DNA of 49,205 nucleotides from Sphaerochaetaceae bacterium (lineage in GTDB: Bacteria > Spirochaetota > Spirochaetia > Sphaerochaetales > Sphaerochaetaceae). Positions 21,122 to 39,887 of this stretch are shown one piece after another (position 1 is the stretch's first letter; each line of letters opens with the position of its first letter). The translations under genes and the position numbers were made by a program. Below the pieces are notes generated by a model. That model made no database searches, had not been told where the DNA came from, and was given only the letters and a program-made list of their open reading frames with translations. Where the stretch lies: assembly GCA_028702575.1 (NCBI GenBank), contig JAQVOO010000001.1, positions 1 through 49,205 on the forward strand. The letters run 5' to 3'.

Positions 21122-21922
21122 CTAAAACGTTGGCTTAGCAGGTAGCACATAAGCGTGTAAAACCTGCTCCAGTGGTTTATAATTAGGCATACTGTAACCT
21201 AATGGATTATGGCGTATCCATCCTTCTGCATAGCTATAATGTCCCGAGTCATTCCCCACCTGCTGGCTCATATCGCGCATAGTTTGAACATAGGAGTCGA
21301 GCTTCTGACTATCGTCTAACCAGTTACGCTGTGAGACGTGGCAGGAGAGCATATGTTCTTTATGGTCGATGACCGAAGAAATGTCGGTGTAGAGTTGCGC
21401 TTCAACTTTCCGGGATAACCCATCGTGGAGTCCATACGGTAAAGCGTGGTACAAAGCGACCTCTTTTCGAATAGGATCAACTTGGGGTATCGTATAAAAG
21501 TTAGGCATGTTTATAGTAAAGGCCGCTGTCACCGCTATACGGGCTGTATTCATATGGTCTTCCATATAATCGAGCAAAGCGGGTATTAGGATGATATCTG
21601 GGGCGACCTGACGAATAACTGCAGCTGTTTTGCGGACAATATCTAGGTCATAAACTACTTCCAAATCATTGGTAAAACTTGGATACCATGTTGCGCCGAG
21701 ATAAGCTGCTGCTGTCTGAGCTTCTTTTCTTCGAATAACCTCAATTTCTTCACGGTTATATTCCAAAGTACCACAATTGCCATTTGCAATATTCAGGTAA
21801 TGCAGGGAAATGTTTTGTCCTTTTAATAAAAACAACGTTCCTGCCATCATGAATTCAATGTCATCTGGGTGGCAGCCAATAGCTAGAGCAGTTCGTGGTG
21901 TATACGAATTTTCTTTTGACAT
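21122..21922 (-). CDS. LmbE/PIG-L family N-deacetylase
   Basis: A 266-residue zinc-dependent deacetylase-type protein. The family zinc site is visible as IGCHPDDIEFMMAG near residue 16 (HPDD) and the third ligand in LDYMEDHMNTARI near residue 117. Family members remove N-acetyl groups from GlcNAc-type sugars, their lipids or conjugates, usually in the cytoplasm; no signal peptide is present. Starts 2 bases after the oxidoreductase stop, with GGAGG somewhat far upstream (13 bases). It is the distal gene of the minus-strand sugar operon, where it could deacetylate the imported compound or a pathway intermediate. Confidence 0.85.
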   Translation of the reverse strand: MSKENSYTPRTALAIGCHPDDIEFMMAGTLFLLKGQNISLHYLNIANGNCGTLEYNREEIEVIRRKEAQTAAAYLGATWYPSFTNDLEVVYDLDIVRKTAAVIRQVAPDIILIPALLDYMEDHMNTARIAVTAAFTINMPNFYTIPQVDPIRKEVALYHALPYGLHDGLSRKVEAQLYTDISSVIDHKEHMLSCHVSQRNWLDDSQKLDSYVQTMRDMSQQVGNDSGHYSYAEGWIRHNPLGYSMPNYKPLEQVLHAYVLPAKPTF

Positions 21923-21924
21923 GA

Positions 21925-22992
21925 TTAAATAAAGACCTCCTTTCCATCTGCTTGTGCAGACTCATGACAAGCTAAAACCAGCTTGATATTTCGTAAACCT
22001 TGAGACCCATCTAAGGGATGCTTATTTATGATAGAATCGGCATGTTCAGCAATTTGTGCTTGATAGATATTTTCTACATCTGTCAAACAAAACGATTTAC
22101 AGAGTTCAGGGTTTTGTAGTTCTAATTTTATAGGTACTGGCTCATCTGGATGTCCAGATAATTGAAATAACGTGCCATAGCCTCGGATGATGCCATCGTT
22201 ACCATAAATTTCATACCCTAAATTATGTAGAGTCCCTAGGAGTCCGCCACGCGGTTGGTTAAAGCCTACGCGGATGCTACCTTTTATTCCATTTTCTAGT
22301 TCATAAGAGATTACTGCCCCATCCTCTACGCCAATATCGAGGGTTTTGGGGTAGTAGGTACAGTGGACACTTTTTATTTTTTTTTGGAATAAAAATTCAG
22401 CCATATCTAAACAATGTCCCCCTAATTCGCTGATGGGCCCTTCTGTTTCATTTTTTTTAAAATAACGCCAGAAAGCTGCCTCTATTGGATCCTTTCCACA
22501 GTGAAACTCCATGTGCAAAACTGCATAAGGGTTTTTACCGATAGCTTCCTGTTTCAGTAGTTCGCGGGTCTTATGGTTGTAAGCATTTTTAGTCATCATG
22601 AGATTTACCGACACACTTAGATTGTGTCCGGTAGCGTAATTGATTAGTTCTTCAGCCTCTTCAATTGTGGTTGCTATCGGGTTTTCAGTTATGACATGTT
22701 TTCCTGCTTTCAGAGCTTCCATTGCTATCGGAAAGTGGGTAGCATTGGATGTCGTTATATAGATGGCATCAATTTTAGGGTTTTCTAAGAGCTGCTGGTA
22801 CGTTTCGTACCAGCGGATACCCAACGCTTTAGCACCTTCCTTACGGCCTTGATTCAAGTCCGTAGCACCAGCTAACATAAATGAGGGTAATGCTTGATTA
22901 AAGCGGTTCTTGTCTAGGGCAAACCCCTCTTTAGCAATCCTGTTTTCTGCTATTTCCCCAAAACCAACAATCCCATACTGAATCTTTTCCAC
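21925..22992 (-). CDS. Gfo/Idh/MocA-family NAD(P)-dependent oxidoreductase
   Basis: A 355-residue two-domain oxidoreductase. The Rossmann opening is YGIVGFGEIAENR; the usual EKP motif is present as TENPIA near residue 101 (Lys replaced by Asn), and the active-site helix reads SELGGHCLDMAEFLF with the conserved His. Members oxidise a ring or chain hydroxyl of a sugar (myo-inositol, 3-keto-sugar formation and others). The EKP lysine normally helps catalysis, so its loss may alter the reaction. GTG start with GGAGG. It is paired with a DegT-type aminotransferase upstream, a pairing known from keto-sugar amination pathways. Confidence 0.85.
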   Translation of the reverse strand: MEKIQYGIVGFGEIAENRIAKEGFALDKNRFNQALPSFMLAGATDLNQGRKEGAKALGIRWYETYQQLLENPKIDAIYITTSNATHFPIAMEALKAGKHVITENPIATTIEEAEELINYATGHNLSVSVNLMMTKNAYNHKTRELLKQEAIGKNPYAVLHMEFHCGKDPIEAAFWRYFKKNETEGPISELGGHCLDMAEFLFQKKIKSVHCTYYPKTLDIGVEDGAVISYELENGIKGSIRVGFNQPRGGLLGTLHNLGYEIYGNDGIIRGYGTLFQLSGHPDEPVPIKLELQNPELCKSFCLTDVENIYQAQIAEHADSIINKHPLDGSQGLRNIKLVLACHESAQADGKEVFI

Positions 22993-23002
22993 TGTAATCC
23001 TC

Positions 23003-24277
23003 CTACTTATAGTGGGCTTTCAGGATGTTTTTCACCGCATCTATACAGCGCTGAATGTGTACTTTTTCCCAAGTAGGGTGTAAAAAGAGACTCAATGTTT
23101 GACTTCGTAAACCTTTTGCAGTTGGGCAGACAACTTCGCCATATTTTACTGCCTCGGGGTTTGTATACTCTTGAGACTTAAAGGGGAATTTAACGGAACC
23201 AAAGCCATTGAGCTCTTTATAAGCGCGCTCTTCGTATGCTTCTGGCCACTGGATACCGTAACATGGGATTCCTAGTGCAATTAATTCTTTACTAAATTGA
23301 GGTGCCTCAATATTTAGTTCCTTTAAATCAAGTAGGATCGGGTACCACCAATAGGCATTTTGGCGATCTTCGGTGTTTACTGGTATTGCTTTTATGCCTC
23401 GCAAGGCGTTCAAGGCCTCATCGTATGTTTTGGCATGCTCTCTTCTTCGCTTAAGGTTCCATGAATCGAAACGTTTAAGTTCGTTGATTCCAATTATGGA
23501 CTGTATCTCTGTCATACGGTAATTGAAGCCGACCCGGTTGTGGACATAAGTAAGTTTTTCTTCCATAGCTAATAGGTTTAATCTCTCTTTGACATCGTAA
23601 CCGTGGTCTCTAAAAGAGCGACATTCCCAAGCTAAGTCTTCGTTATTTGTTACAACCATGCCCCCTTCACCACCAGTGGTAAAGTGCTTGCTTTGGCAAA
23701 AACTAAAACAGCCAACATCCCCGAGTGTACCAACCTTTTTGCCTTTATAGGTTCCCCCAAAGCACTGCGCACAGTCTTCAACAACATAAAGTTTGTTAGC
23801 TTTAGCAAAATCGAGAATTGGGTCCATGTCGGCCACCACTCCATAGAGGTGGACAACCACAATCGCTTTGGTTTTAGGACTGAGTAATGACTTCAGTACT
23901 GCCGGATTGAGGGTATGTTCTTCGGTTACGTCAGCAAAGACAGGGATTGCCCCAGCCTGTACTATACAAAACGAAGAGGCTATGAAGGAGTAAGAGGGGA
24001 CAATTACTTCATCTCCAGGGCCAATACCAAGACTGGCGAGGGCAATGTGTAATGCCGCGGTCCCATTTGAACAACTAATGGCGTAGGCTGAACCTTCCCA
24101 TTCGGCAAACTGCTTCTCAAATCCCATCCCTTTTTTGCCAGTCCAATAATTTACTAAACCACTTTTAATGGGCTCTTGGATAGCCGTTAAGGTTTCTGGC
24201 GCAAATTGTGGCCACATGGGGAATCCTAATTTTGCAGCGCCGTCTGCATTCATAATTAAATCATCATTTTTTTTCAT
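23003..24277 (-). CDS. DegT/DnrJ/EryC1-family PLP sugar aminotransferase
   Basis: A 424-residue PLP enzyme of the fold that transfers an amino group to or from a keto-sugar. I start at ATG 24277, which has AAGGAGG seven bases upstream. Hallmarks: CSNGTAALHIAL, GDEVIVPSYSFIAS, VVEDCAQCFGG and the PLP-lysine region FSFCQSKHFTTGGEGGMV (Lys in SKHF). Length is slightly above the ~370-400 typical. The family usually acts on nucleotide-linked or phosphorylated keto-sugars in biosynthesis; in this catabolic-looking operon it might run the other way. It lies 10 bases before the oxidoreductase and 500 bases after the NagB-like gene. Confidence 0.87.
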   Translation of the reverse strand: MKKNDDLIMNADGAAKLGFPMWPQFAPETLTAIQEPIKSGLVNYWTGKKGMGFEKQFAEWEGSAYAISCSNGTAALHIALASLGIGPGDEVIVPSYSFIASSFCIVQAGAIPVFADVTEEHTLNPAVLKSLLSPKTKAIVVVHLYGVVADMDPILDFAKANKLYVVEDCAQCFGGTYKGKKVGTLGDVGCFSFCQSKHFTTGGEGGMVVTNNEDLAWECRSFRDHGYDVKERLNLLAMEEKLTYVHNRVGFNYRMTEIQSIIGINELKRFDSWNLKRRREHAKTYDEALNALRGIKAIPVNTEDRQNAYWWYPILLDLKELNIEAPQFSKELIALGIPCYGIQWPEAYEERAYKELNGFGSVKFPFKSQEYTNPEAVKYGEVVCPTAKGLRSQTLSLFLHPTWEKVHIQRCIDAVKNILKAHYK

Positions 24278-24777
24278 GGATGAGCCTCCTTGGTCTCTCT
24301 CATTCATAAGTTTTTTCTATTTATTTTCGACTTGTGTAATTGGGTGTCCTCCAGCACCTAGAGTTGTCTTTTCTATCATCTCCTTTTCCAAACTAGGCCA
24401 CAGCTAGGAAGGTGTCTTGACTATAACTCCTTAGGTTCATTATAGGCTATATTAATAACATTGCCACTAAAACAATTAACTGCTTGCATTGCAACCATGA
24501 CAAAATTATATGGAATAAAGATTTTTGCAAATAATAAAAAAAAGTAAAGTGAAATACGGCATGCTCAGCATAATGTCTGGCCATGGTGCAAGTTTCTTGA
24601 TTCTATTGTATCTGTGAATACCTCCCCTATAGTAGTGATATTAGCAGGAGGCTTTAGTACATCCTGCCGGTGTCTGACTGTAGATAGGTTGTGTTTTCTG
24701 GCATGCTCCTAAGCGGCTGTGTAATGGTAGGATTAATCTTTTGCTTCGCATCACCTGCCTATCTCATAGGCGTGCTC
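24278..24777. other. 500-base gap inside the minus-strand sugar operon
   Basis: No gene is recognised. The stretch holds the aminotransferase ribosome site (near 24285), a short perfect inverted repeat GCCTAT-CTC-ATAGGC at 24757-24771 just after the NagB-like stop, and an AT-rich core around 24430-24560 that could carry a second promoter. A minus-strand open frame of about 40 codons around 24590-24720 shows no start or similarity I recognise. It may be a deleted gene remnant or an internal promoter region. Confidence 0.4.
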
Positions 24778-25707
24778 CTAGTGCATTTCGACTGTACAGG
24801 TACCAAAATTTGGTTGTAGGTAGTGGAAAACAACATTTGGGTGGTCGGCCAATAGTGACATTGGGACACTTGAGTCGGCTATTTTTTTACTAATCATGTA
24901 GGCAGAAAGGCGCATGCCGAAGGGGTTGTCATGCCAACCTGGATGCCAAATACTTACCATTTCCGACTTCCAAGTTTCCACAGGTCCCACGGTTACAGCG
25001 TGTGATGGTACGTTAGTGACTACACCGCCGCCAGACGTTCTTGCATTTTGAATCATGGTCATAGGGTGAATTTCTAATACCCTGGTACCTAGTTTGCGAT
25101 ACTCTTCTGGACTAGGTGGGTTTTTATCATATGGGGCAACTCTTTGCGGAGGGTCGTTAAAAGCCCAGTGTTTGGTCTCTCCTTGTCCCCCCTGCATGCA
25201 AAGACACTTTATAGTATCATAAGATGCAGTGTAATCGGCTATGCCTGCGACGGTAGGGAAATGGAGGTTTTTCTCGGGCATTCGGAGTTTTTTGTCGATT
25301 CGGTTATAGAATAATTCCAAAACTGCACGTTTAAAACTTAAAGGATACGAAACATCGACTTCTTTACCATCGGCGACCCATTCATCCATACTCCAGAAAT
25401 GACCCTCTCGGACATCAATTTCCAAGTCATTAATGATGCGTGCTACTAACGGCAACTGTTCAGTGGGACCAATAGGACCACAGATTCCTGTTGGATTGTC
25501 TGCAGTTGAGGCGGTGAAAGCTTTAATATACTCCAACGCTTCAGCTAAGAAAAATTCATCGCGGGTTTCATACATTTTTATGATAAACCCTGGCCTTTGT
25601 AAGGCGAGTAGATCCTTGACATTGAGTCTAGCAGCAGCGTCTAGAATTTCCGGGTCCATGGTTGTATAGTCCCACCAACCTTTTGCTACTTTACTGATAT
25701 TTCTCAT
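24778..25707 (-). CDS. NagB/glucosamine-6-phosphate isomerase-like protein
   Basis: A 309-residue protein of the glucosamine-6-phosphate deaminase fold, longer than NagB (~260). Phosphate-site and catalytic segments are recognisable but altered: [10 protein letters not shown] at 77-86, FWSMDEW with the Asp at 108, and [14 protein letters not shown] at 173-186 where NagB has GIGxDGHIAFNEP. His180 is kept; the motif Asp is absent and the motif Glu is Asp. It probably isomerises or deaminates an amino-sugar phosphate or a related compound, with changed specificity. A perfect 8-bp hairpin sits directly ahead of its ribosome site. It follows the ROK gene by 43 bases. Confidence 0.75.
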
Positions 25708-25722
25708 TGGGCAAATCCTCCT

Positions 25723-25744
25723 TTGATGTGTTTTTACACATCAA
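25723..25744 (-). promoter_or_regulatory. Perfect hairpin abutting the NagB-like gene ribosome site
   Basis: TTGATGTG (25723-25730) and CACATCAA (25737-25744) are perfect complements around a six-base loop. On the minus transcript the stem is followed immediately by AGGAGG and the ATG at 25707. It could modulate translation or message stability, or as DNA serve as a repressor site. Confidence 0.55.
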
Positions 25745-25750
25745 TCATGT

Positions 25751-26983
25751 TTATATATTATAGGGGAAGGCTTGCAATATTGTATTTTCCAACCCCATTT
25801 GACATGCTCCTATAACTGCCGATTCACGTCCCAAGCGGGTAAGTCTGAATTTGGGAAGGGGAAACGGCACGGATTTTTCAAGCTGTAGACGCATTGGTTC
25901 TAAGACAAACTTTTCACAATTTGGGATGTCAAGTAAATTACCTCCAAAAACAACTAATTCTGGGTTTAGTATAACTAGAATGTTACCGATTCCCCTAGCC
26001 AATAATTTTGCATACGAAGCCAGTATAGTTTGTGCTGTAGCATTACCAGCGTTAGCCATCTCACCAATTAAGGTATGGGTAACCTTTTCATAGGAATAAT
26101 TGGCTGCTTGGAAAACATCTTCTCCTTTACCCGCATGAATCAAGTTTAGGGCAATCCGTTGGATCTGATGAATTGATCCAGTTGATTCAAAGGTTTGAGC
26201 TTCCTTAGTTCCTGCATATCCATCTGACGCAATATATTGGTAGCCAATTTCCCCGGCTGCACCATTAGCTCCTCGATACAACTGACCATGGAAAAGGATG
26301 CCAGCACCAATGCCATAGTGGATAGTAATGTAGACACAATTTTCTTCAGGAATCGAATTTTGATAGTGTTTTTCAGCTATTATAGCTAGATTTTCATTAT
26401 TTTCTAAAAATACTGGTACTGTGTAGGTGCTTTCTATTAGTCGTTTAAGATTCAATTCTTTTAAGTTACTGTATAATACTGCATAAATCTTTTGATGTAC
26501 CAAATCAATAGCAGCGGGAACGCCGATTGTGAAAGCTATTACTGGGATTTCCTGATCATCGATGTATTGCTTATGATGTAAGAAATACTCTAATCGTTGT
26601 AGTATGTGGTCCTCTATACAACTGTTTGTAATATCTAGAACCACCTCTTCAACGGTCAACATATGACCAGCCATATCCATCTTAGCGATTTTTAAAAATG
26701 GCAGTTCGATTGAAATCCCGACCGACATTCCCAGTTGGGAGTTGATTTCAACTTCATGGGCCTGACGGCCATGTTTTGTGATAATTTTTCTTTCTTTTAA
26801 ATATCTAAGTTCAATTAGTTGGTCAACGGCCCGTGAGACCGCTGGAAGGCTCAGGTTGAGAACTTTGGATATTTCAGACCGATATGTAGGTCCTAGCTTT
26901 CTAACATGATTCAAGATCAGGGAGATGTTCATCGTATTTTGCAAGTTAGCGTTGACCGCGCTATGTAACTTTAGGCGATGCAT
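25751..26983 (-). CDS. ROK-family transcriptional regulator
   Basis: A 410-residue NagC/Mlc-type regulator, presumably of this sugar locus. ATG 26983 has GGGAGG upstream and is preferred over the extended frame. An N-terminal winged HTH (about residues 15-70, with the recognition stretch SEISKVLNLSLPAVSRAVDQL) is followed by a ROK sugar-binding domain (FTIGVPAAIDL, IHYGIGAGILFHGQL, GANGAAGEIGY). The kinase END motif is ENN, as expected for a non-catalytic sensor. The zinc site normally CGxxGCxE is missing; the region reads TKEAQTFESTGSI. Its start overlaps the end of the URO-D gene by 13 bases. Confidence 0.9.
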   Translation of the reverse strand: MHRLKLHSAVNANLQNTMNISLILNHVRKLGPTYRSEISKVLNLSLPAVSRAVDQLIELRYLKERKIITKHGRQAHEVEINSQLGMSVGISIELPFLKIAKMDMAGHMLTVEEVVLDITNSCIEDHILQRLEYFLHHKQYIDDQEIPVIAFTIGVPAAIDLVHQKIYAVLYSNLKELNLKRLIESTYTVPVFLENNENLAIIAEKHYQNSIPEENCVYITIHYGIGAGILFHGQLYRGANGAAGEIGYQYIASDGYAGTKEAQTFESTGSIHQIQRIALNLIHAGKGEDVFQAANYSYEKVTHTLIGEMANAGNATAQTILASYAKLLARGIGNILVILNPELVVFGGNLLDIPNCEKFVLEPMRLQLEKSVPFPLPKFRLTRLGRESAVIGACQMGLENTILQAFPYNI

Positions 26984-28017
26984 AGCTTTCCTCCCAGCGT
27001 AACTTCTTCTAGATAATCCATCATATGCTGAATTATGGGGATAGGAGTCCACAGATAGAGGCTGTAGGTAAGAATTAATCCTCCAGCGGGGTCATACATG
27101 GTTTGCATTAGGTACGATAAATAGTCTAGCACTTTTTTAGGGTCCTCTTGTTGAGTAATAAATTGTCGGTCAATATCGAGGTCGATAGCTACCCTGTTTT
27201 TTATAGTCTTTTTAATCCATTCTAAAGTATTTACCCGATCTAGGACATTAAACACACGTATAGGTAAGGTGAGTAGGTCTTCAGCCAAATCTCTTATGTC
27301 TCCATCACTGTGCATATGAATAATAGATCCGTGCTGTTCCGCCGGTGCCATAATGTTTTTGTAGAGGGGTAGAATATGTTTTTTGAACATGGTTGGTGAG
27401 AGCATGGGCCCTTTGTGCATTCCCAGATCTTCTGCAAACCCCATCCATTCAACATCCGCATATTCTACAAACCGTTCAACTAAACCAAGATTCAAGTCTT
27501 GCAACATTGCTAGAAGAGTAGAGAGCTCAGCAGGATCGTCATAAAGCGTATAAATTGCTTGCTCATACCCTAAAAGGTCTAATAGTTTTAGGAAAGTGTG
27601 ACCATGACCAATCTCCCCTGAGCGTAAACAGGAGAAAAAGCCGATAGAGCCGCCGGTTGGTGAACTTCCTTTCTCGAGATACCAATGAGTAGTTCTATCG
27701 GGATCAGGCGGGGTGTAGGTGTGAACTTTTTCTAAGTTAGCAAGAGAGTGTTGGGTTACAGTGCCGATGAGCCCGCCCATCTTTGTTTCCCAGACACATC
27801 CCCAAAGGTCGGTCCAAAGAAGAAAGGGTACTTCTTCTTGAAGGTTACTGTAAACAGGAAGACCCTCAGGAAAAAGCTGTGGATAACTAAGGATAATATC
27901 AGCGAGTTGGCTACGGTCATAATGGTCCCAACAAACCATGTTTATATGAAATATTACAGGAATAGCAGAAGGAAAATCATACTTCACTGTCGTCTGTAGC
28001 AATGTCTTTCTATCCAT
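26971..28017 (-). CDS. URO-D (uroporphyrinogen decarboxylase/methyltransferase) superfamily protein
   Basis: A 348-residue cytoplasmic protein with the URO-D TIM-barrel layout (COG0407-like). Visible features include FAEDLGMHKGPMLSPTMFKKHILPLYK and IIHMHSDGDIRDLAEDLL, the place where corrinoid methyltransferases of the MtaA/CmuA group carry a zinc HxC; here it is HxH. The porphyrin-site residues of true HemE at the N-terminus are not seen, and a haem role is unlikely in a sugar operon. First gene of the minus-strand run, divergent from the binding-protein gene. Possible functions are methyl transfer from a methylated substrate or another lyase reaction; neither is shown. Confidence 0.75.
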   Translation of the reverse strand: MDRKTLLQTTVKYDFPSAIPVIFHINMVCWDHYDRSQLADIILSYPQLFPEGLPVYSNLQEEVPFLLWTDLWGCVWETKMGGLIGTVTQHSLANLEKVHTYTPPDPDRTTHWYLEKGSSPTGGSIGFFSCLRSGEIGHGHTFLKLLDLLGYEQAIYTLYDDPAELSTLLAMLQDLNLGLVERFVEYADVEWMGFAEDLGMHKGPMLSPTMFKKHILPLYKNIMAPAEQHGSIIHMHSDGDIRDLAEDLLTLPIRVFNVLDRVNTLEWIKKTIKNRVAIDLDIDRQFITQQEDPKKVLDYLSYLMQTMYDPAGGLILTYSLYLWTPIPIIQHMMDYLEEVTLGGKLCIA

Positions 28018-28085
28018 TTACCCGCCTAAAGGTCACTATCGCACAGCATATGTAACAGTACGTTAGTGATAAATTGCACAATTTG

Positions 28086-28115
28086 ATAGTAGTATGAGAC
28101 TTTTTTTTGTGTCAA
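28086..28115 (-). promoter_or_regulatory. Promoter for the minus-strand sugar operon
   Basis: On the minus strand TTGACA (28115-28110) is followed after 18 bases by TACTAT (28091-28086). It points toward the URO-D gene start at 28017, giving a leader of about 60 bases. Confidence 0.5.
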
Positions 28116-28144
28116 GCAAAATTATGGGTTTAGCAAGATTATGG

Positions 28145-28173
28145 TTGACAACCAAATTGGGGTGAAATAGAAT
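28145..28173 (+). promoter_or_regulatory. Promoter for the plus-strand sugar transporter operon
   Basis: TTGACA (28145-28150) and TAGAAT (28168-28173) are separated by exactly 17 bases. It lies about 80 bases before the binding-protein ATG and 30 bases from the opposing -35, so a regulator bound between them could control both transcripts. Confidence 0.7.
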
Positions 28174-28202
28174 GATTCTAGTGGAATACAGTAGTTATGA
28201 TT

Positions 28203-28232
28203 AACACTGAGTAACTTATTAGGATCAGTGTT
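28203..28232 (+). promoter_or_regulatory. Inverted repeat in the leader of the transporter operon
   Basis: AACACTGA (28203-28210) and TCAGTGTT (28225-28232) are perfect complements separated by 14 bases. The site lies downstream of the promoter and directly before the AAAAAGGAGG ribosome site, so it may be an operator for the ROK regulator or a leader hairpin. Confidence 0.45.
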
Positions 28233-28251
28233 TAAAAAAGGAGGATTAACT

Positions 28252-29496
28252 ATGAAAAAGGTATTCTTGATATCAGCTTTAGTGCTGGTAATAATAACGT
28301 CCATGGTTTTTGGTGCTGGCCAACAAGAAGCTGCCAAACCCAAGGTAACGGTTTTCTGGGCCCTGTATGATGGGTTGACCGAAGAGTATCGGGCGGATCT
28401 CCAAAGCGCGTTCATGGCAGAGTATCCCGATATTATTCTCGATATCGTGCCAATCCCTTGGGATAACGTCTATGATAAGTTGACGACTTCGCTAGCAGGC
28501 GGTAATGCTCCTGAGCTGAGTGTTATTGGTACGCGTTGGGCTCTTGAGCTACTTTCAATGGATGCCATAGAACCAGTCGACAAATATGTAAGCCAAGCTA
28601 CGTTGGATAATATTTTTGACGGAACTAAAGAAGCTCTTATTGATGGTAAGCTATGGGGTCTTCCTGTAGCAGCAGGAGCGAGAATCTTAGCAATCAATAA
28701 TGACCTTACAAAGAAAGTCCCAGCTACGATGGAAGAAATGCGTGCTGAGGCGTTAAATGTGGTCAGAAGAACCGGTAAATATGGTATTATTATGCCTGGA
28801 AAGAAACATACTGAACTTACCGATTTCGGTTATTATCTCTATGCGGCTGGTGGCGACATCTTTGAGGTCAATCCGGATGGTAGCTTTGGTAAATGTGCCA
28901 TTAACAGTCCTGCTGGTGTCAAGGCCCTTGAGTTTATGGTACAGCTAGCTAAGGACAAGGTTGTCCCAGGTGGTTACTTGTCACAGACACGCATGGAGGC
29001 ACACCCTGTTTTCTATGCGGGTGATGCAGCTTACGTTATGATTGGTGCTTGGGTTGATTCTGCTCTACAGCAGGCTGGGGCTAAGTTTGATGTGACATAT
29101 GCCCAGATTCCAGGATTTGCTGGATATAAATCAGCACCCTTGGTAATTACCGACTCTATCGCTATCTTTAAAGATGCTAAGAATAAAAAAGAAGCTGGTA
29201 TATTCCTTGACTTTTTCTATCGTGATGAGTGGAAAGCAAAGTTTGACGAATTAATCGGTTTCCCACCAGTAACTATTTCTGCAAGCAAACTTCCTCAGTT
29301 CCAATCACCTCTGTACCAAGCTCTCAATGAAGCAGCTGGAAATGCAAAACCATGGCCTTTGATTGAAGGGTTTGCTGAGATGACAGATATAATTTGGGAT
29401 GCAATAAGTATGGCGTATCTTGGACAAAAAACTCCTAAGAAAGCTCTTGACGATGCAGCCAGAAGTATTGATGAACTCAAGGCTACTTACGAATAA
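28252..29496 (+). CDS. CUT1 carbohydrate ABC transporter substrate-binding protein
   Basis: A 414-residue family 1 extracellular sugar-binding protein. ATG 28252 has a strong AAAAAGGAGG site and begins MKKVFLISALVLVIITSMVFGAGQQEA: a signal peptide cleaved near GAG, with no lipobox cysteine. The mature GQQEA start is the pattern I associate with Sphaerochaeta-like binding proteins. Typical family segments are the opening VTVFWALYDG, SVIGTRWALELL, DGKLWGLPVAAGARILAIN and AGDAAYVMIGAW. It is the first gene of the importer operon and is followed by a strong intercistronic stem-loop. The sugar is unknown; oligosaccharides or substituted sugars are typical for CUT1. Confidence 0.92.
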   Translation: MKKVFLISALVLVIITSMVFGAGQQEAAKPKVTVFWALYDGLTEEYRADLQSAFMAEYPDIILDIVPIPWDNVYDKLTTSLAGGNAPELSVIGTRWALELLSMDAIEPVDKYVSQATLDNIFDGTKEALIDGKLWGLPVAAGARILAINNDLTKKVPATMEEMRAEALNVVRRTGKYGIIMPGKKHTELTDFGYYLYAAGGDIFEVNPDGSFGKCAINSPAGVKALEFMVQLAKDKVVPGGYLSQTRMEAHPVFYAGDAAYVMIGAWVDSALQQAGAKFDVTYAQIPGFAGYKSAPLVITDSIAIFKDAKNKKEAGIFLDFFYRDEWKAKFDELIGFPPVTISASKLPQFQSPLYQALNEAAGNAKPWPLIEGFAEMTDIIWDAISMAYLGQKTPKKALDDAARSIDELKATYE

Positions 29497-29511
29497 GATG
29501 TGAACAATGGA

Positions 29512-29544
29512 ATTCCGCCCAACTATATATGGATTGGGCGGAAT
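29512..29544 (+). promoter_or_regulatory. Intercistronic stem-loop after the binding-protein gene
   Basis: ATTCCGCCCAA (29512-29522) pairs over 11 bases with TTGGGCGGAAT (29534-29544) around an 11-base loop, with no T-run after it. Placed between binding-protein and permease genes, it probably stabilises the upstream message or causes partial termination, giving more binding protein than permease. Confidence 0.7.
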
Positions 29545-29584
29545 CGTTTATAGTACTAACTACCTTTTGTGAGGAAGGCCGCAC

Positions 29585-30487
29585 ATGAAACAACTATCAG
29601 TAAAGCGTCTCAGTGGGGATGCTAAAATGGCATATGTGCTACTTGCTCCTGCGGCAGCTTTTATTGCTGTTTTTATGATCTACCCTATTTTCTATGTTAT
29701 TATGATGTCTCTATATAGGACGAATAAACTCGGTATTCTACAAGAATTTATTTGGTTTAAGAATTTTACTCGAATATTCAAACAAAAAGTATTTTGGGAA
29801 GTGACAGGACGGTCTCTGCTCTGGACAGCTATTGGTGTTACCGTAAAAACAGTGGTCGGGATGATTATAGCCCTCTGTTTGAATGTGGAATTTAGAGGTC
29901 GCAAATTTTCCCGTTTGCTATTTATTATTCCCTGGGCTTCGTCGGTCCCAATTAGTGCGATGCTTTGGAAATGGGTCTATGATCATGAGTTTGGGCTTCT
30001 CAATCACACCTTAATTGCTCTTGGCATCACCCAAAACCCTCCAGTGTGGCTTGGAACCCCTATTTGGTCGTTTGTCTCTTGTATGTGGGTCGATATTTGG
30101 ATTGGTATTCCTTTTATGGCCTTGGTGTTTCTCGCCGGAATGCAGTCAGTCCCAAAAGATTTGTATGAATCGGCAGAGGTTGATGGAGTAAATTCGGCAG
30201 GGAAGTTTTTCTATATTACCATTCCTAGCATTAAACAAATTATTTTTATTGCCACGCTTCTTTCCAGCCTCTGGACATTTAACGATTTCAATGTGATCTA
30301 TATTCTTACTCGTGGAGGCCCTGCTGGAGCAACCGACATTCTCATTACTGCGATTTATAAGAATGGATTTGAGTGGTTGCGCTTTAGTGATTCTGCTGTC
30401 ATGGCTGTGGTGACGTTCATAATTTTGATGGCCTTGAGCATCGTGTATGCAAGGGTCTACTTCAGAGGGGGGGATGACACATTATGA
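29585..30487 (+). CDS. CUT1 ABC transporter permease (MalF/UgpA type)
   Basis: A 300-residue permease with a short cytoplasmic N-terminus and about six membrane helices. The ATPase-contacting EAA loop reads DLYESAEVDGVNSAGKFFYITIPSIK near residue 193. The end RGGPAGATDILITAIYKNGF is typical for the family. Its stop overlaps the second permease start (ATGA). The operon has no ATPase gene, so it must use an ATPase encoded elsewhere, as is common for CUT1 systems served by a shared MsmK/UgpC-type subunit. Confidence 0.93.
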   Translation: MKQLSVKRLSGDAKMAYVLLAPAAAFIAVFMIYPIFYVIMMSLYRTNKLGILQEFIWFKNFTRIFKQKVFWEVTGRSLLWTAIGVTVKTVVGMIIALCLNVEFRGRKFSRLLFIIPWASSVPISAMLWKWVYDHEFGLLNHTLIALGITQNPPVWLGTPIWSFVSCMWVDIWIGIPFMALVFLAGMQSVPKDLYESAEVDGVNSAGKFFYITIPSIKQIIFIATLLSSLWTFNDFNVIYILTRGGPAGATDILITAIYKNGFEWLRFSDSAVMAVVTFIILMALSIVYARVYFRGGDDTL

Positions 30488-31323
30488 AGAAGTTGACTTA
30501 CCGTAATAAATATAAAATTCCAGTGGTTTTACTAACCCTAATATTACTTTTCATTATGTTATTTCCCTTTTTTATCATGCTTTCAACTATGTTCAAATCT
30601 AGTAGCGAAGTGTATACAAGACCTCCGTACTGGATTCCAAAAGGGTTTGCCTTTAATAACTTTGTTAAAGTCTGGACTGAATACAATCTCTTAGGTTATT
30701 TTAAGAACAGTATAATTGTTGGTCTTGGTACCACGTTGTTGAACACTATAATTATTGTACCAGCCGCTTATGCGATAGCTCGGTTTAAATTCAAGGGTCG
30801 CTCTATAGCTCTCTATTCCCTATTGGCGATGCAGATGTTCAGTCCTGTAATTATAATCATTTCACTCTTTCGAGTATTCGTAAAATTGCAATTACTGGAT
30901 AAACTCAGTGGTCTTATATTAGCAAACACGGTAATAACTTTATCGTTTACCACGTGGCTGATGTTTGGTTATTTTTCCTCAATTCCAAAAGAGATTGAGG
31001 ATGCGGCGAGAATAGACGGGTGTAACAGAATGGGGACCTTGCTTCGGATTATGATTCCGATCGCTTCCCCTGGTTTAGTGACTGCTATGATTTATACTTT
31101 TATCCAAGCCTGGAATGATTTCCTTTTCCCCCTCTCTTTCATCAATGCCCAGAGTAAAATGCCATTAACATTGGGTATTTATCAGTTTGTGGGTCGTTGG
31201 TCCACGCAGTGGGAGATGTTAAATGTAGCTGCATTCTTGGCATTAATTCCCGTATTGATACTTTTCTTTATTATTGAAAAACAGTTGGTAGCTGGTTTAG
31301 CTGGCGGAGCAGTAAAAGGGTAG
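30484..31323 (+). CDS. CUT1 ABC transporter permease (MalG/UgpE type)
   Basis: A 279-residue inner-membrane permease, the partner of the preceding one, with six predicted helices. The EAA loop is IPKEIEDAARIDGCNRMGTLLRIMIP near residue 167, and the C-terminus ends with QLVAGLAGGAVKG, the standard MalG-like tail that contacts the ATPase. Start overlaps the previous stop. A 60-base spacer with GGAGG leads to the isomerase gene, so the same message probably continues into the catabolic genes. Confidence 0.93.
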   Translation: MKKLTYRNKYKIPVVLLTLILLFIMLFPFFIMLSTMFKSSSEVYTRPPYWIPKGFAFNNFVKVWTEYNLLGYFKNSIIVGLGTTLLNTIIIVPAAYAIARFKFKGRSIALYSLLAMQMFSPVIIIISLFRVFVKLQLLDKLSGLILANTVITLSFTTWLMFGYFSSIPKEIEDAARIDGCNRMGTLLRIMIPIASPGLVTAMIYTFIQAWNDFLFPLSFINAQSKMPLTLGIYQFVGRWSTQWEMLNVAAFLALIPVLILFFIIEKQLVAGLAGGAVKG

Positions 31324-31383
31324 GGCTTTAAAGGTAAAATTATACGAAGGTACATATTTAATAAAAAATGGAGGCGTAAGAGG

Positions 31384-32226
31384 ATGTTAAAGGGAATTAA
31401 TTATTGGGCTTTCCCAGCTGATGCGAAAGGGGCTTTATTAACAGGAATTGAAGTTCTGGATCGGGCTGTAGAGTTAGGGTTCGATGCGGTGGAGTTTACT
31501 GTAGATCCAGTTGGAGCTGTTACTCCTGAAACAACCCAAAAAGAGGTTGAGCAGTTACGTAACGAGGCTGCTAAGCGCAATATTATACTTCGAACTCTAG
31601 CAGCAGGTCTGGCTTGGGGAGCTTCTCCGAGTAGCCCTGATCCTAAGGTTCGTGCACAAGCAGTTGAAAATGCTAAGAAACAATTGAGACTTGCCTCATG
31701 GCTGGGTTGTTCTTCAATCCTCTATTTACCGGGTATGGTCTCAGCTTGTTTTGTCCCAGAGTTTAGTCCTCAACCTTATGATAAAGTTTTACAATGGTCT
31801 AAGGAATCACTTAGTGCCATTTTACCGCTGGCTGAAGAGTTGAAGATTGGCATTGGCGTAGAAAATGTCTGGAATCGATTTTTATTAAGTCCAGTTGAAA
31901 TGGCTGAGTACATCGATTCTTTCTCTTCTGAATATGTCGGTTCCTATTTTGATGTTGGGAATGTGATGTTGTATGGCCATCCTGAGCATTGGATTCGCAT
32001 TCTTGGCAAACGTATTTTAGCGGTACATATGAAAGATTTTAGAGTTAATGTTGGTAATTTAGACGGATTCGTCGATTTATTGGCCGGGGATGTTTGTTTT
32101 CCAGAAGTTATGAAAGCTTTTAAAGAGGTTGGTTATAATGGGACATTTACGGCTGAGTATGTACCAGGTACGTTAGGTGCTACCGAAAAAGCGGCTGTAG
32201 CTTTAAAAATTATTGAGAAGATGTAG
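31384..32226 (+). CDS. Sugar phosphate isomerase/epimerase-like TIM-barrel protein
   Basis: A 280-residue protein of the xylose-isomerase-like/AP-endonuclease-2 fold. Metal ligands expected for this fold are visible: Glu in IGVENVWNRF, Asp in SYFDVGNVML, His in AVHMKDFRV and Glu in FTAEYVPG. Members include hydroxypyruvate isomerase, tagatose/psicose epimerases and inosose isomerase or dehydratase, so it probably moves a carbonyl or inverts a centre on a keto-sugar. The ATG at 31384 follows GGAGG at nine bases. It directly precedes a Gfo/Idh/MocA oxidoreductase, and such pairs are common in inositol-like and 3-keto-sugar pathways. Confidence 0.87.
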   Translation: MLKGINYWAFPADAKGALLTGIEVLDRAVELGFDAVEFTVDPVGAVTPETTQKEVEQLRNEAAKRNIILRTLAAGLAWGASPSSPDPKVRAQAVENAKKQLRLASWLGCSSILYLPGMVSACFVPEFSPQPYDKVLQWSKESLSAILPLAEELKIGIGVENVWNRFLLSPVEMAEYIDSFSSEYVGSYFDVGNVMLYGHPEHWIRILGKRILAVHMKDFRVNVGNLDGFVDLLAGDVCFPEVMKAFKEVGYNGTFTAEYVPGTLGATEKAAVALKIIEKM

Positions 32227-32237
32227 GAGGAGCTGGT

Positions 32238-33251
32238 ATGGTGCGTGTTGCATTAGTTGGTCTAGGATTTATGGGGCGTATGCATTTGAGCATTTATGGA
32301 AACCTTCCAAAAGCTCAAATTACTGCATTGTGTGACTCTAGGGAAGAGAGTTTGGACCTTTCAAAAGCTGGTGGAGGAAATATTGCAGTCGGAGAGATGA
32401 AAACCGATGTATCAAAAGCTAAAGTATATACCGATTACAAGAAGATGTTAACTGATGGTGGTTTCGATTTTGTCGATCTTTGTATTCCTACCTTTTTGCA
32501 TAAGGAGTTTGCCGTTTCAGCTTTACGAGCTGGATATGATGTGTTCTGTGAAAAGCCCATGGCCCGTAGTGTAGAAGAAGCTGAAGAGATGGTTACCGTC
32601 GCTAAAGAAACGGGTAAATTCCTCGCGGTGGGGCAATGTCTTCGCTTCTGGCCTATGTATGTAAAGATAAAAGAACTACTTGATTCTAAGAAATATGGCA
32701 AAGTCATCAGTGCAGAATTTTCACGCTATTCGCCTTACCCAACCTGGACGGTAGGGGGATGGACAGATGATGGAGAGTTATCTGGCAGTGCTGCCCTTGA
32801 TCTTCACATTCACGATGTAGACATCATGAATTTCTATTTTGGCCCCCCAAAGGCTGTCACTTCTTCAGGAGTAGAGGCCCCTGGCGGTGGGTTTGGGCAT
32901 ATAGCAACACTATATGATTATCCTGGTATGACCGTGACATCGGTTGGTGATTGGCTCTGCAGTGACTCTTTTAACCTAATCATGCGGGCACTCATTGTTT
33001 TGGAAAAGGGAGTAATTAACTTAGATACTTCTCAGCCAGAGGCATTGGTTGTGTATGAAGATGGTAAAGGTAAGTTCAGTCCGGAACTCGATAGCAAGGA
33101 TGGTTACTATTATGAGTTAGAGGCATTCGTTAATAATGTAGCAACGAGAAAAGCACCTACTGTAGTAACCCCTGAGTCAGCTATGGGATCACTTAAAATT
33201 GTATTAGCTGAAATTGAATCAGCGTCTAAGGGTAAACAGATTAAGCTGTAA
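32238..33251 (+). CDS. Gfo/Idh/MocA-family oxidoreductase (second copy in locus)
   Basis: A 337-residue NAD(P)-dependent sugar dehydrogenase. The opening is VALVGLGFMGRMHLS; CEKPMARS keeps the canonical EKP lysine, unlike the copy at 21925-22992; and ALDLHIHDVDIMNFYFG carries the active-site His and Asp. AGGAGG lies just upstream, 11 bases after the isomerase stop. Together with the isomerase it probably oxidises the imported sugar or reduces an intermediate. It is the last gene of the operon and is followed by a 14-15-bp stem-loop at 33287. Confidence 0.9.
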   Translation: MVRVALVGLGFMGRMHLSIYGNLPKAQITALCDSREESLDLSKAGGGNIAVGEMKTDVSKAKVYTDYKKMLTDGGFDFVDLCIPTFLHKEFAVSALRAGYDVFCEKPMARSVEEAEEMVTVAKETGKFLAVGQCLRFWPMYVKIKELLDSKKYGKVISAEFSRYSPYPTWTVGGWTDDGELSGSAALDLHIHDVDIMNFYFGPPKAVTSSGVEAPGGGFGHIATLYDYPGMTVTSVGDWLCSDSFNLIMRALIVLEKGVINLDTSQPEALVVYEDGKGKFSPELDSKDGYYYELEAFVNNVATRKAPTVVTPESAMGSLKIVLAEIESASKGKQIKL

Positions 33252-33350: not shown

Positions 33351-33641
33351 TTAGTTTGTTTTTGTTAACCTTTGTATAACTTGTAAATATTTTTGTGGTG
33401 TCCCAACGTTAAGCATGAGAATTACAACTTTATCTTCCATTATCTCTGTAATAAGGCGATATTCGCCAATCCGATACCGCCATTGACCACTACGGTTTGC
33501 TTGTAGACTTTTTCCATGTTGGTAGGGGTTCGAACAGCCTTCAAGGTTTTTACGAATCCAAGCAATTATAAGAAGTGAGATATGTTTATCAAGTTTTTTC
33601 ATTGCCTTTAGGGCATTTTTTGTAAACTCTACTGTGTACAT
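33351..33641 (-). pseudogene. RelE/ParE-type toxin, frameshifted near the C-terminus
   Basis: The 96-codon frame matches RelE-type mRNA interferases through LEGCSNPYQHGKSLQANRSG, QWRYRIGEYRLITEI and VILMLNVG. After that it reads TPQKYLQVIQRLTKTN, which is unlike the family. Removing one base from the GGG of the coding strand (33402-33404) gives VGHHKNIYKLYKG and then TAA at 33367-33365, the expected RelE ending with its His and Tyr region. So the present gene appears to have a +1 frameshift that removes catalytic C-terminal residues. Its ATG shares one base with the antitoxin stop (TAATG). A sequencing error in the GGG is the alternative. Confidence 0.8.
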
Positions 33642-33777
33642 TATTTCAGTCCTAATTCGCTCTCCACTTCATCAAGTGAATAGGTCTCTGCCTTGGCCCG
33701 AAATTCTGCAATCGCAGTGTTATAAACCTGAAGATCGTATTCATCTTCAGTACGGTCTAAAACAGATTGCCGTACTA
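33641..33777 (-). pseudogene. RelB-like antitoxin, C-terminal part (separated by IS insertion)
   Basis: The frame RQSVLDRTEDEYDLQVYN...SLDEVESELGLK is the toxin-binding half of a short antitoxin (DUF6290/RelB-like). Its ribbon-helix-helix N-terminus is absent here and lies on the far side of the IS element (35818-35908). The frame continues into the IS end only by chance. Rejoining at the duplicated TAGTA gives MSELVRQSVLDR, a perfect in-frame fusion, for a total of 73 residues once the upstream A-run is corrected. It ends at the toxin start codon. Confidence 0.85.
33773..33777 (+). repeat. Target-site duplication, left copy
   Basis: TACTA directly outside the left IS end, identical to 35818-35822. 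Removing one copy and the IS restores the antitoxin reading frame at the junction. Confidence 0.85.
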
Positions 33778-33794
33778 CTGGCGTTCGACAGTTG
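33778..33794 (+). repeat. IS terminal inverted repeat, left
   Basis: 17 bases, CTGGCGTTCGACAGTTG, perfectly complementary to 35801-35817. Confidence 0.92.
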
Positions 33795-33940
33795 GGCCTA
33801 CAAAAATCGGCGTGAAAAAGTAGCAACTTGCATTCTAGGGGCTTAGAACGCAGGTTTTCTCCATTTCGAACTAGCTACAAACCCGAAATCTCATAGTTAC
33901 AATGATAAATTATTTATTGCAAATTAACGGCTAGTAGGTA

Positions 33941-33969
33941 TTGAGTTACTGAAATACTTCTGCTATAAT
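33941..33969 (+). promoter_or_regulatory. Transposase promoter with almost no leader
   Basis: TTGAGT (33941-33946), a 17-base spacer and a perfect TATAAT (33964-33969). The transposase ATG is at 33980, so transcription should begin only a few bases before it and no Shine-Dalgarno sequence fits between. Confidence 0.7.
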
Positions 33970-33979
33970 TTTAGTTACA

Positions 33980-35686
33980 ATGTACTTGCGAATTACTAAA
34001 GCAAAAACAAAGGCTGATGGCCTAGTCGAATACCTCCAACTCTGTCAGAACTATTATGACAAAGAGACCAAACGATCCAAAACTACAGTTGTCTACAATT
34101 TCGGCCGCAAGGATGCCGTTGATATTTCCGCTATCAAACAACTGGTGTCCAATCTTGCCTCCTACATCGCTAAGGAGACCAAAGAGGTCCTTCCTCAGCT
34201 GTTTGCTGGAGATGCAGATCTTCACACTACTTTCCTTGGCTCCGTTTCCCTCGGTGGTACATGGCTACTCGACCAGATGTGGAAACGTTTAGGTATCGCC
34301 AAGGCCTTGAAATCGGTCTTGAAAGATCGTAACTATAGCATCCCCCTTGAACGACTCATCTTCTCCATGGTGGCTAACCGGGCCTTGGCACCTTCGAGCA
34401 AGCTTCACTTGGAGCATTGGGTGGCTCACGAGGTATACATCGAAGATCTTGATTCAGTGGATTCACAGAACCTGTATCGTGCGATGGACTTTCTCCAAGA
34501 GCACTCGGATGTGCTACAGAAAACTATATTTCATGCAGTCGCCGATCTGTTCAACCTTGAAGTCGACCTGCTGTTCATTGATACGACTACCACCTATTTC
34601 GAGATTGAAGGTGAGGATGCCGATTATAGCGAAACTGATGACGCTGGTACAGAATCGGTGCATCTTGGGTATCGTCGCCGGAGTAAGCATGGGAAAGATA
34701 ACCATCCAGAATTAGCCCAAGTAGTGATCTGCTTTGCAGTCACTCGTACTGGAATTCCGGTAAAGTGCTGGTCTTGGCCAGGCAATACCAGCGACAAGGC
34801 TATTGTAGAAGAAATCAAGAAAGACCTTAACTTGTGGGATCGTGGTAGAACCATCTATGTAGAAGATACCGGTTTCAATTCTGAGAAGAACCGTAGGATT
34901 CTCCGGGGTGCTGGTGATCACTATATCATCGGTGAGAAACTACGGTTAGGTCGGTATGCCGATGCTCATGAGGCACTCAGTAAGAGAGGAAAATTTACGC
35001 AACTCGAAAACGGTCTTGAGATCAAGGACATGTTGTTAGATACCGATAGCACCATATGTCGTCGTTTCATTCTTATTCGGAACCCGGATGAGGCGAAACG
35101 AGACAAGCTCAAACGTGATGATATTGTTGCGGAAGCTGAGCGACGCATCGAAGCTTTAAAACAGGAACAGCAGAACCAACACACGAAACGCACCTGTGCT
35201 TTGCGTAGTCATGCAGTATTTGGTAAGTACATCAAGCAGAGTAAGACGGGTAAGCTCAGCATCGATAAGATGAAAATCCGTAAGGAAGAACAGTTTGATG
35301 GCAAATACCTGATCAGTACCAGTGACTTGAAGCTCTCATCCGAAGAGGTTGTGATGGGGTATAAGCAATTGGCCAACATAGAACGAGTATTTCGAGATAT
35401 GAAACATCTTATTGATATCCGGCCGGTGTACCATCGTAAGGAGCAGCGCATCAAAAGCCATATCCTCCTTTGTTGGTTGGCGATGTTGATGATTCGTATT
35501 GCTGAACAAGAGTCACACCTGACGTGGTTTCAGATGAAAAAAGTTTTTAATAAATTGCACCTTGGCACACTTAAAACCCCTCAGGGAACCGTACGACAGA
35601 CCAGTGAAATCACAGGCGATATGAATAAGTTATTCAATGCATTGCAAATAGATACACCAAACAAGGTGATGCACATCGAGACGTAA
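33980..35686 (+). CDS. IS1634-family transposase
   Basis: A 568-residue DDE transposase of the IS4-like superfamily, full length for the IS1634 family. The N-terminus MYLRITKAKTKADGLVEYLQL is the family opening. Acidic residues appear in LLFIDTTTTYFEIEG and TIYVEDTGFNSEKN, and the C-terminal YKQLANIERVFRDMKHLIDIRP is the Y-R/K-E signature region with its Glu. A long lysine/glutamate-rich insert lies around residues 370-420. The frame is intact, so the element may still be active. Expression should be from the IS promoter with a leader of only a few bases. Confidence 0.93.
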   Translation: MYLRITKAKTKADGLVEYLQLCQNYYDKETKRSKTTVVYNFGRKDAVDISAIKQLVSNLASYIAKETKEVLPQLFAGDADLHTTFLGSVSLGGTWLLDQMWKRLGIAKALKSVLKDRNYSIPLERLIFSMVANRALAPSSKLHLEHWVAHEVYIEDLDSVDSQNLYRAMDFLQEHSDVLQKTIFHAVADLFNLEVDLLFIDTTTTYFEIEGEDADYSETDDAGTESVHLGYRRRSKHGKDNHPELAQVVICFAVTRTGIPVKCWSWPGNTSDKAIVEEIKKDLNLWDRGRTIYVEDTGFNSEKNRRILRGAGDHYIIGEKLRLGRYADAHEALSKRGKFTQLENGLEIKDMLLDTDSTICRRFILIRNPDEAKRDKLKRDDIVAEAERRIEALKQEQQNQHTKRTCALRSHAVFGKYIKQSKTGKLSIDKMKIRKEEQFDGKYLISTSDLKLSSEEVVMGYKQLANIERVFRDMKHLIDIRPVYHRKEQRIKSHILLCWLAMLMIRIAEQESHLTWFQMKKVFNKLHLGTLKTPQGTVRQTSEITGDMNKLFNALQIDTPNKVMHIET

Positions 35687-35800
35687 AGACTCCTCAAGCA
35701 GACTTAAAAACACCCTCAAAAATAGGCATACAATGCGATTTATGACAAATCGTTAATAATTTGATATAAATAAAAGAGTTGCTGACGATTTTGTAGCTAG

Positions 35801-35817
35801 CAACTGTCGAACGCCAG
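35801..35817 (-). repeat. IS terminal inverted repeat, right
   Basis: CAACTGTCGAACGCCAG, the exact complement of the left terminal repeat. Confidence 0.92.
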
Positions 35818-35908
35818 TACTAGTTCTGACATGCTTATTCCATTCAATTGAGCATATTTTTATTATGAGTTGTGCCTCTTCTTTGCTTAACTGTACAGAA
35901 ATTGCCAT
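35818..35908 (-). pseudogene. RelB-like antitoxin, N-terminal part (cut by IS, frameshifted)
   Basis: From ATG 35908, with AGGAGG seven bases upstream, the minus strand reads MAISVQLSKEEAQLII. It then needs a shift of one base in an A5 run (35857-35861) to continue as KYAQLNGISMSELV, the rest of a ribbon-helix-helix antitoxin N-terminus. The IS interrupts at residue ~30; the remaining 43 residues are at 33641-33777. Includes the right TACTA duplication copy (35818-35822). The unshifted frame (KICSIEWNKHVRTSTG) matches nothing. Confidence 0.85.
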
Positions 35909-37163: not shown

Positions 37164-37184
37164 TTGTTCCTCCTGCTACAGGTA

Positions 37185-37210
37185 AAACGCGGGGTACGTC
37201 CCCCGCGTTT
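37185..37210 (-). promoter_or_regulatory. GC-rich stem-loop between binding-protein and dehydrogenase genes
   Basis: AAACGCGGGG (37185-37194) pairs over 10 bases with CCCCGCGTTT (37201-37210) around a six-base loop. On the minus transcript it follows the binding-protein stop and precedes the dehydrogenase, mirroring the stem-loop at 29512-29544 in the first locus. Confidence 0.7.
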
Positions 37211-37243
37211 CCAATTAAACTAGATTGTTCTAACTATTCAAGC

Positions 37244-39881: not shown

Positions 39882-39887
39882 CTTTTA

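Follow-up and report, generated by a model that had tools for sequence, protein, structure and literature searches.

A NagB-like protein and an LmbE-family deacetylase in a divergent spirochaete locus tentatively assigned to amino-sugar catabolism

Positions 21122-33251 of a 49,205-nucleotide stretch of DNA from a Sphaerochaetaceae bacterium (GenBank assembly GCA_028702575.1, contig JAQVOO010000001.1; the whole stretch is referred to here as the window) carry a divergent locus. We tentatively read it, with a little less than even confidence, as serving the catabolism, under ROK control, of an N-acetylated amino-sugar compound taken up in unphosphorylated form. The core of the locus is a pair of genes encoding LmbE, a PIG-L/LmbE-family N-deacetylase, and NagBL, a NagB-like protein that, on its profile and predicted fold, is a new branch of the glucosamine-6-phosphate (GlcN6P) deaminase fold family. 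The amino-sugar substrate class appears reasonable, and the route for this N-acetylated amino sugar is probably undescribed. Sediments and guts contain a large pool of organic nitrogen in the form of amino sugars, whose known breakdown runs, to our knowledge, almost entirely via glucosamine-6-phosphate.

The window is one of the contigs of a 2.29-Mb spirochaete bin that is 92% complete (genome G000; L, G and C followed by a number denote loci, genomes and contigs, respectively). Two gene sets within 21122-33251 point away from a 210-bp control region. The leftward order is a URO-D-family protein (UROD), a ROK-family regulator, NagBL, a 470-bp gap, a DegT-type sugar aminotransferase (DegT), a first Gfo/Idh/MocA oxidoreductase (GfoA) and LmbE, and the rightward order is a CUT1 solute-binding protein, two permeases, a xylose-isomerase-like TIM barrel (TIM) and a second Gfo/Idh/MocA oxidoreductase (GfoB). 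All the families that an earlier note had named in this region were recovered as open reading frames with Pfam matches, the NagB-like protein being identified via a 40-member profile and AlphaFold/Foldseek.

NagBL (24778-25707, minus strand; 309 amino acids) shows no Pfam or NCBIfam match at E≤0.001 as a single sequence, its best PDB match has E=0.15, and no Pfam match was found when it was scanned together with 39 relatives. Its NagB-like identity could thus not be proven from the single sequence and required profile and fold comparison, which then confirmed it. The 40-member profile retrieves only glucosamine-6-phosphate deaminases from the PDB (best E 2.4e-6). The AlphaFold model, with a predicted local distance difference test (pLDDT) score of 88 and a predicted template-modelling (pTM) score of 0.88, has GlcN6P deaminases as its best Foldseek matches (E ~3e-14, TM 0.6-0.8). 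The family is tightly conserved, with a mean column identity of 75% and ~90 invariant columns in the 40-sequence alignment, and the window protein carries no changes at the invariant positions. D108 in an MDEW motif and H180 in KHWAFNDP are invariant in the 40 sequences, and we take them to correspond to the Asp of the MDEY motif and the His of the DGHIAF motif in the active site of GlcN6P deaminases. At two other places the family departs from NagB. An HDNPFGMRL segment (N61-type; H259, D260, N261, F263, G264, R266 and L267 invariant) replaces the lysine region, and GPIGPT stands in place of the PTGGTP-type loop. The replaced loop and lysine region are presumably the phosphate site of NagB; because these putative phosphate-site regions are swapped for other invariant residues, the alignment suggests that the NagBL substrate has a different head group than that of NagB.

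NagBL could alternatively be part of a variant NagA/NagB route that merely duplicates the ordinary one, with N-acetylglucosamine (GlcNAc)-6-phosphate or a close phosphate as its substrate. The protein does have the GlcN6P-deaminase fold and keeps, besides the Asp and His, R223, which aligns by reading to the phosphate-site Arg of NagB. However, it scores 16.5 bits against the canonical NagB model TIGR00502, whose cut-off is 236.9, and the importer would supply an unphosphorylated sugar to a locus in which a kinase is not present. The same genome, moreover, encodes a canonical NagA and two NagB over the cut-off elsewhere, so ordinary GlcNAc-6-phosphate does not need this locus. We regard such a redundant variant as quite unlikely.

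The partner protein LmbE (21122-21922, minus strand; 266 amino acids) belongs to the PIG-L/LmbE superfamily by its match to PF02585 (E 8.4e-20; 72 bits, cut-off 28.2). Its HPDD and EDH metal-site motifs, which make up a His2-Asp site, are near-invariant in 57 relatives. The metal site of the superfamily has been described, and its members act on GlcNAc-containing compounds (PMC4101496). Among the closest solved relatives of LmbE is diacetylchitobiose deacetylase, and with the BshB1 bacillithiol deacetylase model it reaches 89.8 bits, below the cut-off of 182.5.

A scan of ~85,000 species genomes for NagBL returned 145 loci, and 80 were retained for analysis; genes in these loci were called with a weight on conservation, and LmbE adjacency was counted among the 68 loci with enough downstream sequence. 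An LmbE relative directly adjoins NagBL in 54 of the 68 informative loci and lies within 4 kb in 4 more (58/68). The NagBL records are labelled Spirochaetota, Lentisphaerota, Planctomycetota, Kiritimatiellota, Verrucomicrobiota and Actinomycetota, among others. In most Lentisphaeria the NagBL-LmbE pair is the whole unit and is flanked by unrelated housekeeping genes. DegT and/or GfoA of the window type stand beside the pair in 12 loci from spirochaetes and Lentisphaeria, including Victivallis. On the NagBL tree at least 10 changes are needed for the GfoA label, a count inflated by truncated loci, which were scored as lacking GfoA, and 7 for the LmbE label; the association with GfoA is thus not simply one inherited block. 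PfkB sugar kinases lie near the pair in L085, L087, L102 and L094, as do a class II aldolase in L085 and DeoC-type aldolases in L077 and L080; such neighbours are what one would expect for the later steps of a catabolic pathway. In two Actinomycetota bins (L061 7439-9894 and L084 1177-3629), NagBL occurs without LmbE and adjoins M24 and M20 family hydrolases, which are perhaps an alternative deacylase.

Beyond the pair, the locus can be divided into modules that occur separately. Other spirochaetes share the 11-gene block, whole and with the importer in L049 and as far as the contig end in L048. Together with the recurrence of the pair across phyla, this shows a linkage that chance does not explain. 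G020, the closest relative, has the locus on two contigs, each of which breaks off within NagBL; it retains intact GfoB (72% identity), TIM (74%), NagBL (84%), DegT (83%) and LmbE (75%), lacks the importer, and has only C-terminal scraps of UROD, ROK and GfoA. TIM and GfoB join the NagBL-LmbE pair in several loci, and in L075 NagBL, LmbE and CUT1 are accompanied by two Gfo and two TIM proteins. Between GfoA and GfoB-TIM, L091 carries genes (2265-5447) for creatininase and for cyclase-like and aminoglycoside 3-N-acetyltransferase-like proteins.

A second, paralogous cluster is present in the same genome (L155, contig G000:C120, 3-9320), in the order ROK, TIM barrel, CUT2 (ribose-type) ABC importer, LmbE, NagB-like protein (NagB2), TIM barrel and Gfo/Idh. 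Its LmbE, NagB2 and second-listed TIM barrel share 33%, 31% and 42% identity with the window proteins, and no Pfam match was found in NagB2. Genome G123 repeats this order at 73-86% identity. As the gene set recurs with unrelated transporters, LmbE, the NagB-like protein, TIM and Gfo/Idh make up its core. The idea of nine families as one obligatory unit, implied in the earlier note, was rejected on the evidence of G122, G020 and the Lentisphaeria loci: LmbE and NagBL stand alone in many Lentisphaeria, and UROD, DegT and GfoA are separate in G122.

In G122 (L146 196-10534), another spirochaete, these three genes (DegT at 81% identity) form one run that immediately follows a corrinoid-methyltransferase cassette and has neither NagBL nor LmbE close relatives with it; the cassette consists of a corrinoid protein, an MtaA-like protein, a RACo-like activator and a PocR regulator. 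In G123 (L172 3-13114) the same cassette precedes the LmbE2-NagB2 cluster, which ends with a URO-D gene, and a related cassette lies on another contig of G000. No first methyltransferase was recognised in the G122 and G123 cassettes. This arrangement raises the possibility that a methylated amino sugar is processed by way of a corrinoid, in which case UROD would be the first methyltransferase and pass the methyl group to the corrinoid protein. Such a role appears improbable: G122 and G123 share a genus code and may record one event at one site, the window has no corrinoid gene, and UROD is a scrap in G020. UROD (26971-28017, minus strand) is a divergent member of its family (PF01208 4.5e-8) and was rejected as a standard MtaA methyltransferase, scoring 19.5 bits against a cut-off of 400 and carrying H-x-H where we would expect H-x-C, which we take to be the zinc-site motif of the MtaA type. 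The window copy also has 18 private changes at positions invariant in 4 relatives (five sequences only), and constraint on it looks relaxed in this lineage.

The earlier note had counted two oxidoreductases in the system, which fails for the window copy of GfoA. GfoA (21925-22992, minus strand; 355 amino acids; PF01408 8.9e-24) is full length but carries eight substitutions where 13 relatives show no variation, namely K104N in the EKP motif, G13E, G184E, G188S, D189E and three others; they affect the lysine of EKP, a glycine of the Rossmann fold and the GGPIGDV motif. The window GfoA is, from these substitutions, probably catalytically dead. With the catalytic Lys and other invariant residues gone, probably only one of the two dehydrogenases works. 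The closest relative retains a short, frame-shifted GfoA remnant (L043 3734-3903) among conserved neighbours. Since the window copy is degraded and only this remnant persists in G020, while DegT and NagBL are free of such changes, GfoA looks dispensable and probably inactive in this lineage, with DegT working without it or with GfoB.

GfoB (32238-33251, plus strand; PF01408 1.9e-25) keeps an intact EKP motif, and its EKP and DLHxHD motifs are invariant in 7 relatives; its PDB matches include DgpA. Both oxidoreductases fall short of the curated models. GfoA and GfoB score 69.7 and 74.2 bits with the levoglucosan dehydrogenase LgdA (NF052479; cut-off 650), 88.4 and 103.5 bits with inositol 2-dehydrogenase (TIGR04380; cut-off 355), and 79.3 and 136.9 bits with uridine diphosphate (UDP)-GlcNAc 3-dehydrogenase (NF040723; cut-off 450). 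TIM (31384-32226, plus strand) matches PF01261 at 2.3e-37. DegT (23003-24307, minus strand; PF01041 1.9e-91) belongs to the DegT/DnrJ/EryC1/StrS family (307.5 bits, above the cut-off) and shows no changes at invariant positions; its pyridoxal-phosphate lysine motif, SKHFTTGGEGG, is present in all complete alignment rows. The closest PDB entry is 7l7x, a UDP-4-keto-sugar aminotransferase.

These matches bear on two further alternatives. The locus could be biosynthetic, the Gfo/Idh proteins and DegT building a 3-amino or diamino sugar in the manner of UDP-GlcNAc3N pathways: the best NCBIfam match of GfoB is the archaeal UDP-GlcNAc 3-dehydrogenase, and the nearest solved relative of DegT works on a UDP-sugar. 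The GfoB match is nevertheless far under its cut-off, and the locus genes include a CUT1 importer and a NagC-like regulator and no glycosyltransferase or nucleotidyltransferase, so biosynthesis must be considered very unlikely. The locus could also serve the breakdown of an N-acetylated aminocyclitol of the inosamine or aminoglycoside type, with DegT and GfoA as an inosose aminotransferase and inositol dehydrogenase running in reverse, LmbE deacetylating and TIM acting on a ketocyclitol. Relatives of DegT include 2-deoxy-scyllo-inosose aminotransferases, the models nearest to GfoA and GfoB are those of inositol 2-dehydrogenase and UDP-GlcNAc 3-dehydrogenase, although neither cut-off is reached, and the aminoglycoside 3-N-acetyltransferase-like gene of L091 lies near GfoA. 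A NagB-type deaminase, however, requires a ring-opening aldohexosamine, not a cyclitol; the NagBL-LmbE pair mostly occurs without DegT or GfoA, and GfoA is decayed in the window. We therefore hold an aminocyclitol substrate to be unlikely.

The CUT1 solute-binding protein (28228-29496, plus strand) matches PF01547 (SBP_bac_1) at 6e-33, and a 67% identical relative adjoins NagBL-LmbE in L055, where CUT1 components occur at 64-67% identity. Permease 1 (29585-30487, plus strand) and permease 2 (30484-31323, plus strand), identified by sequence reading and conservation, are 61-83% and 79-88% identical, respectively, to the proteins in the corresponding positions of related loci. The cluster showed no gene for an importer ATPase. 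The NagC-like ROK regulator (25751-27052, minus strand) matches PF00480 at 2.7e-33, with a weak helix-turn-helix match, and reaches 100 bits with the NagC model (cut-off 650); its true start probably lies downstream of 27052.

In the control region, the UROD promoter on the minus strand (-35 at 28115, -10 at 28091-28086) is conserved in L048 and L049, as is the importer-operon promoter on the plus strand, TTGACA-17-TAGAAT (28145-28173), which has 11/12 consensus matches. Downstream of the UROD promoter lies an operator-like box, TTATCACTAACGTACTGTTAC (28052-28072, minus strand), that is kept in the same two loci. A second box, TTATGATTAACACTGAGTAACTTAT (28195-28219, plus strand), follows the importer promoter, and TAACACTGAGTA is identical in three genomes. 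The boxes TTATCACTAACGTACTGTTAC and TTATGATTAACACTGAGTAAC (28195-28219) are alike, with one after each divergent promoter, and both may be read as putative ROK operators because of their position and conservation and not because of motif rarity: with up to three mismatches, the motif is no rarer than usual.

Returning to the catabolism of an N-acetylated amino sugar, we propose the following scheme. The CUT1 importer would bring in the compound unphosphorylated and, judging from family knowledge, LmbE would remove the acetyl group. NagBL, in which the deaminase Asp and His are kept and the putative phosphate-binding lysine region apparently is not, would then turn the freed hexosamine into a ketose and ammonia. 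GfoB and TIM may carry out 3-keto chemistry, with C3 oxidation followed by elimination or rearrangement, by analogy with LgdA and LgdB1, which do so in levoglucosan breakdown (PMC7676230, PMC10066097). This part of the scheme is helped by L075, which pairs two Gfo and two TIM proteins with CUT1, NagBL and LmbE. DegT could remove a further amino group or recycle a keto-sugar by transamination, and UROD and GfoA would be accessory; the order of steps is left free. Catalytic motifs are conserved in LmbE, DegT, GfoB and NagBL.

Several observations weigh against this scheme. The pair occurs alone, without importer or oxidoreductase, in many Lentisphaeria, and G020 retains the enzymes although its importer is gone. 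No kinase was found among the window cluster genes, and DegT could run in the synthetic direction. The proposed loss of the phosphate site rests on a divergent-loop alignment around residues 177-181, where the AlphaFold model is of low confidence, so that NagBL might still take a phosphorylated sugar. A broader proposal is possible yet doubtful: that NagBL and its sister NagB2 make up one clade with the GlcN6P-deaminase fold whose members deaminate hexosamines without a phosphate or with other substituents, and that this clade, with a PIG-L deacetylase and 3-keto-sugar enzymes, constitutes a widespread phosphorylation-independent route of amino-sugar catabolism in Spirochaetota, Lentisphaerota, Planctomycetota and Kiritimatiellota. 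A deaminase-fold family that lacks a Pfam entry, is conserved across hard-to-culture phyla and is tied to a deacetylase would point to a route missed by current annotation.

The 470-bp non-coding gap upstream of DegT (24308-24777) holds a weakly ceramidase-like (PF04734) gene in related spirochaete loci, between NagBL and DegT (L048 7360-8685, L049 10945-12249), and a protein of the same weak similarity lies between GfoA and NagBL in a Lentisphaeria locus (L125 8634-9959). A tblastn search of the window gap gave no convincing relic of this gene. On the right, the 33251 border may be set by a ParE-like gene (33351-33641) and an insertion sequence (33773-35822; 22-nt terminal inverted repeats and a DDE transposase), at whose border no target-site duplication was found. 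These two elements separate GfoB from an alcohol-dehydrogenase gene (36135-37163). In G020 the alcohol-dehydrogenase gene directly adjoins GfoB in convergent orientation. A second sugar locus (36135-44374) contains this gene, a CUT1 solute-binding protein, a ROK regulator, a split transketolase, two permeases and a short-chain dehydrogenase/reductase; the same permeases and reductase (65-74%) stand directly before GfoA and NagBL in L045. Further along, 45262-48934 encodes a three-subunit molybdenum hydroxylase of the xanthine-dehydrogenase type, and in L175 close homologues of it (69-76%) are found within a few kb of a remote homologue of NagB.

No described pathway with this gene set was found in the curated models or the literature searched, in agreement with the earlier note. 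Since the families are linked elsewhere and no matching pathway emerged, they do not prove to be scattered, nor does the cluster match a characterised pathway in those sources. Of the system then envisaged, the linkage and the lack of a matching pathway stand, while the single nine-family unit and the two working oxidoreductases do not. The nearest known systems are partial parallels. In the NagA/NagB route for GlcNAc-6-phosphate, deacetylation is likewise followed by a deaminating isomerisation, and NagBL has the NagB fold; here, in contrast, a PIG-L deacetylase takes the place of NagA and ABC import that of the phosphotransferase system, and NagBL is far under the NagB cut-off. The GlcN6P deaminase-like family PRK02122 (NF002557), presumably a fusion of NagB and PIG-L, would have the same two domains in one chain where this locus has two genes; 21 of 40 NagBL relatives match its model weakly (best E 2e-4), and the window NagBL does not. 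The archaeal diacetylchitobiose deacetylase of chitin breakdown, the best PDB match of LmbE, also belongs to the PIG-L family and to a catabolic amino-sugar route, but its partner genes are other ones and an exo-glucosaminidase gene was not seen here. The NtdABC kanosamine pathway shares the pairing of DegT with Gfo/Idh, NtdA being a 125-bit PDB match of DegT, whereas this locus has no HAD phosphatase and does have an importer and a deacetylase.

The levoglucosan cassette LgdA-LgdB1-LgdB2-LgdC resembles the locus in having two Gfo/Idh/MocA proteins, PF01261 TIM barrels and a sugar ABC importer. Its two Gfo/Idh/MocA proteins and TIM barrels are matched by the make-up of L075 (PMC7676230), and ROK regulators are among the neighbours of levoglucosan loci (PMC7676230, PMC10066097). 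It differs in that the window Gfo proteins reach 70-74 bits against the LgdA cut-off of 650 and that Lgd loci have no LmbE, NagBL or DegT. By any curated cut-off, and to that extent, the locus is not a levoglucosan, inositol, bacillithiol or UDP-GlcNAc3N pathway. Because the nearest published parallels are partial and PRK02122 is a plausible relative, we file it as a variant of amino-sugar catabolism with a new NagB-fold branch rather than as a categorically new system.

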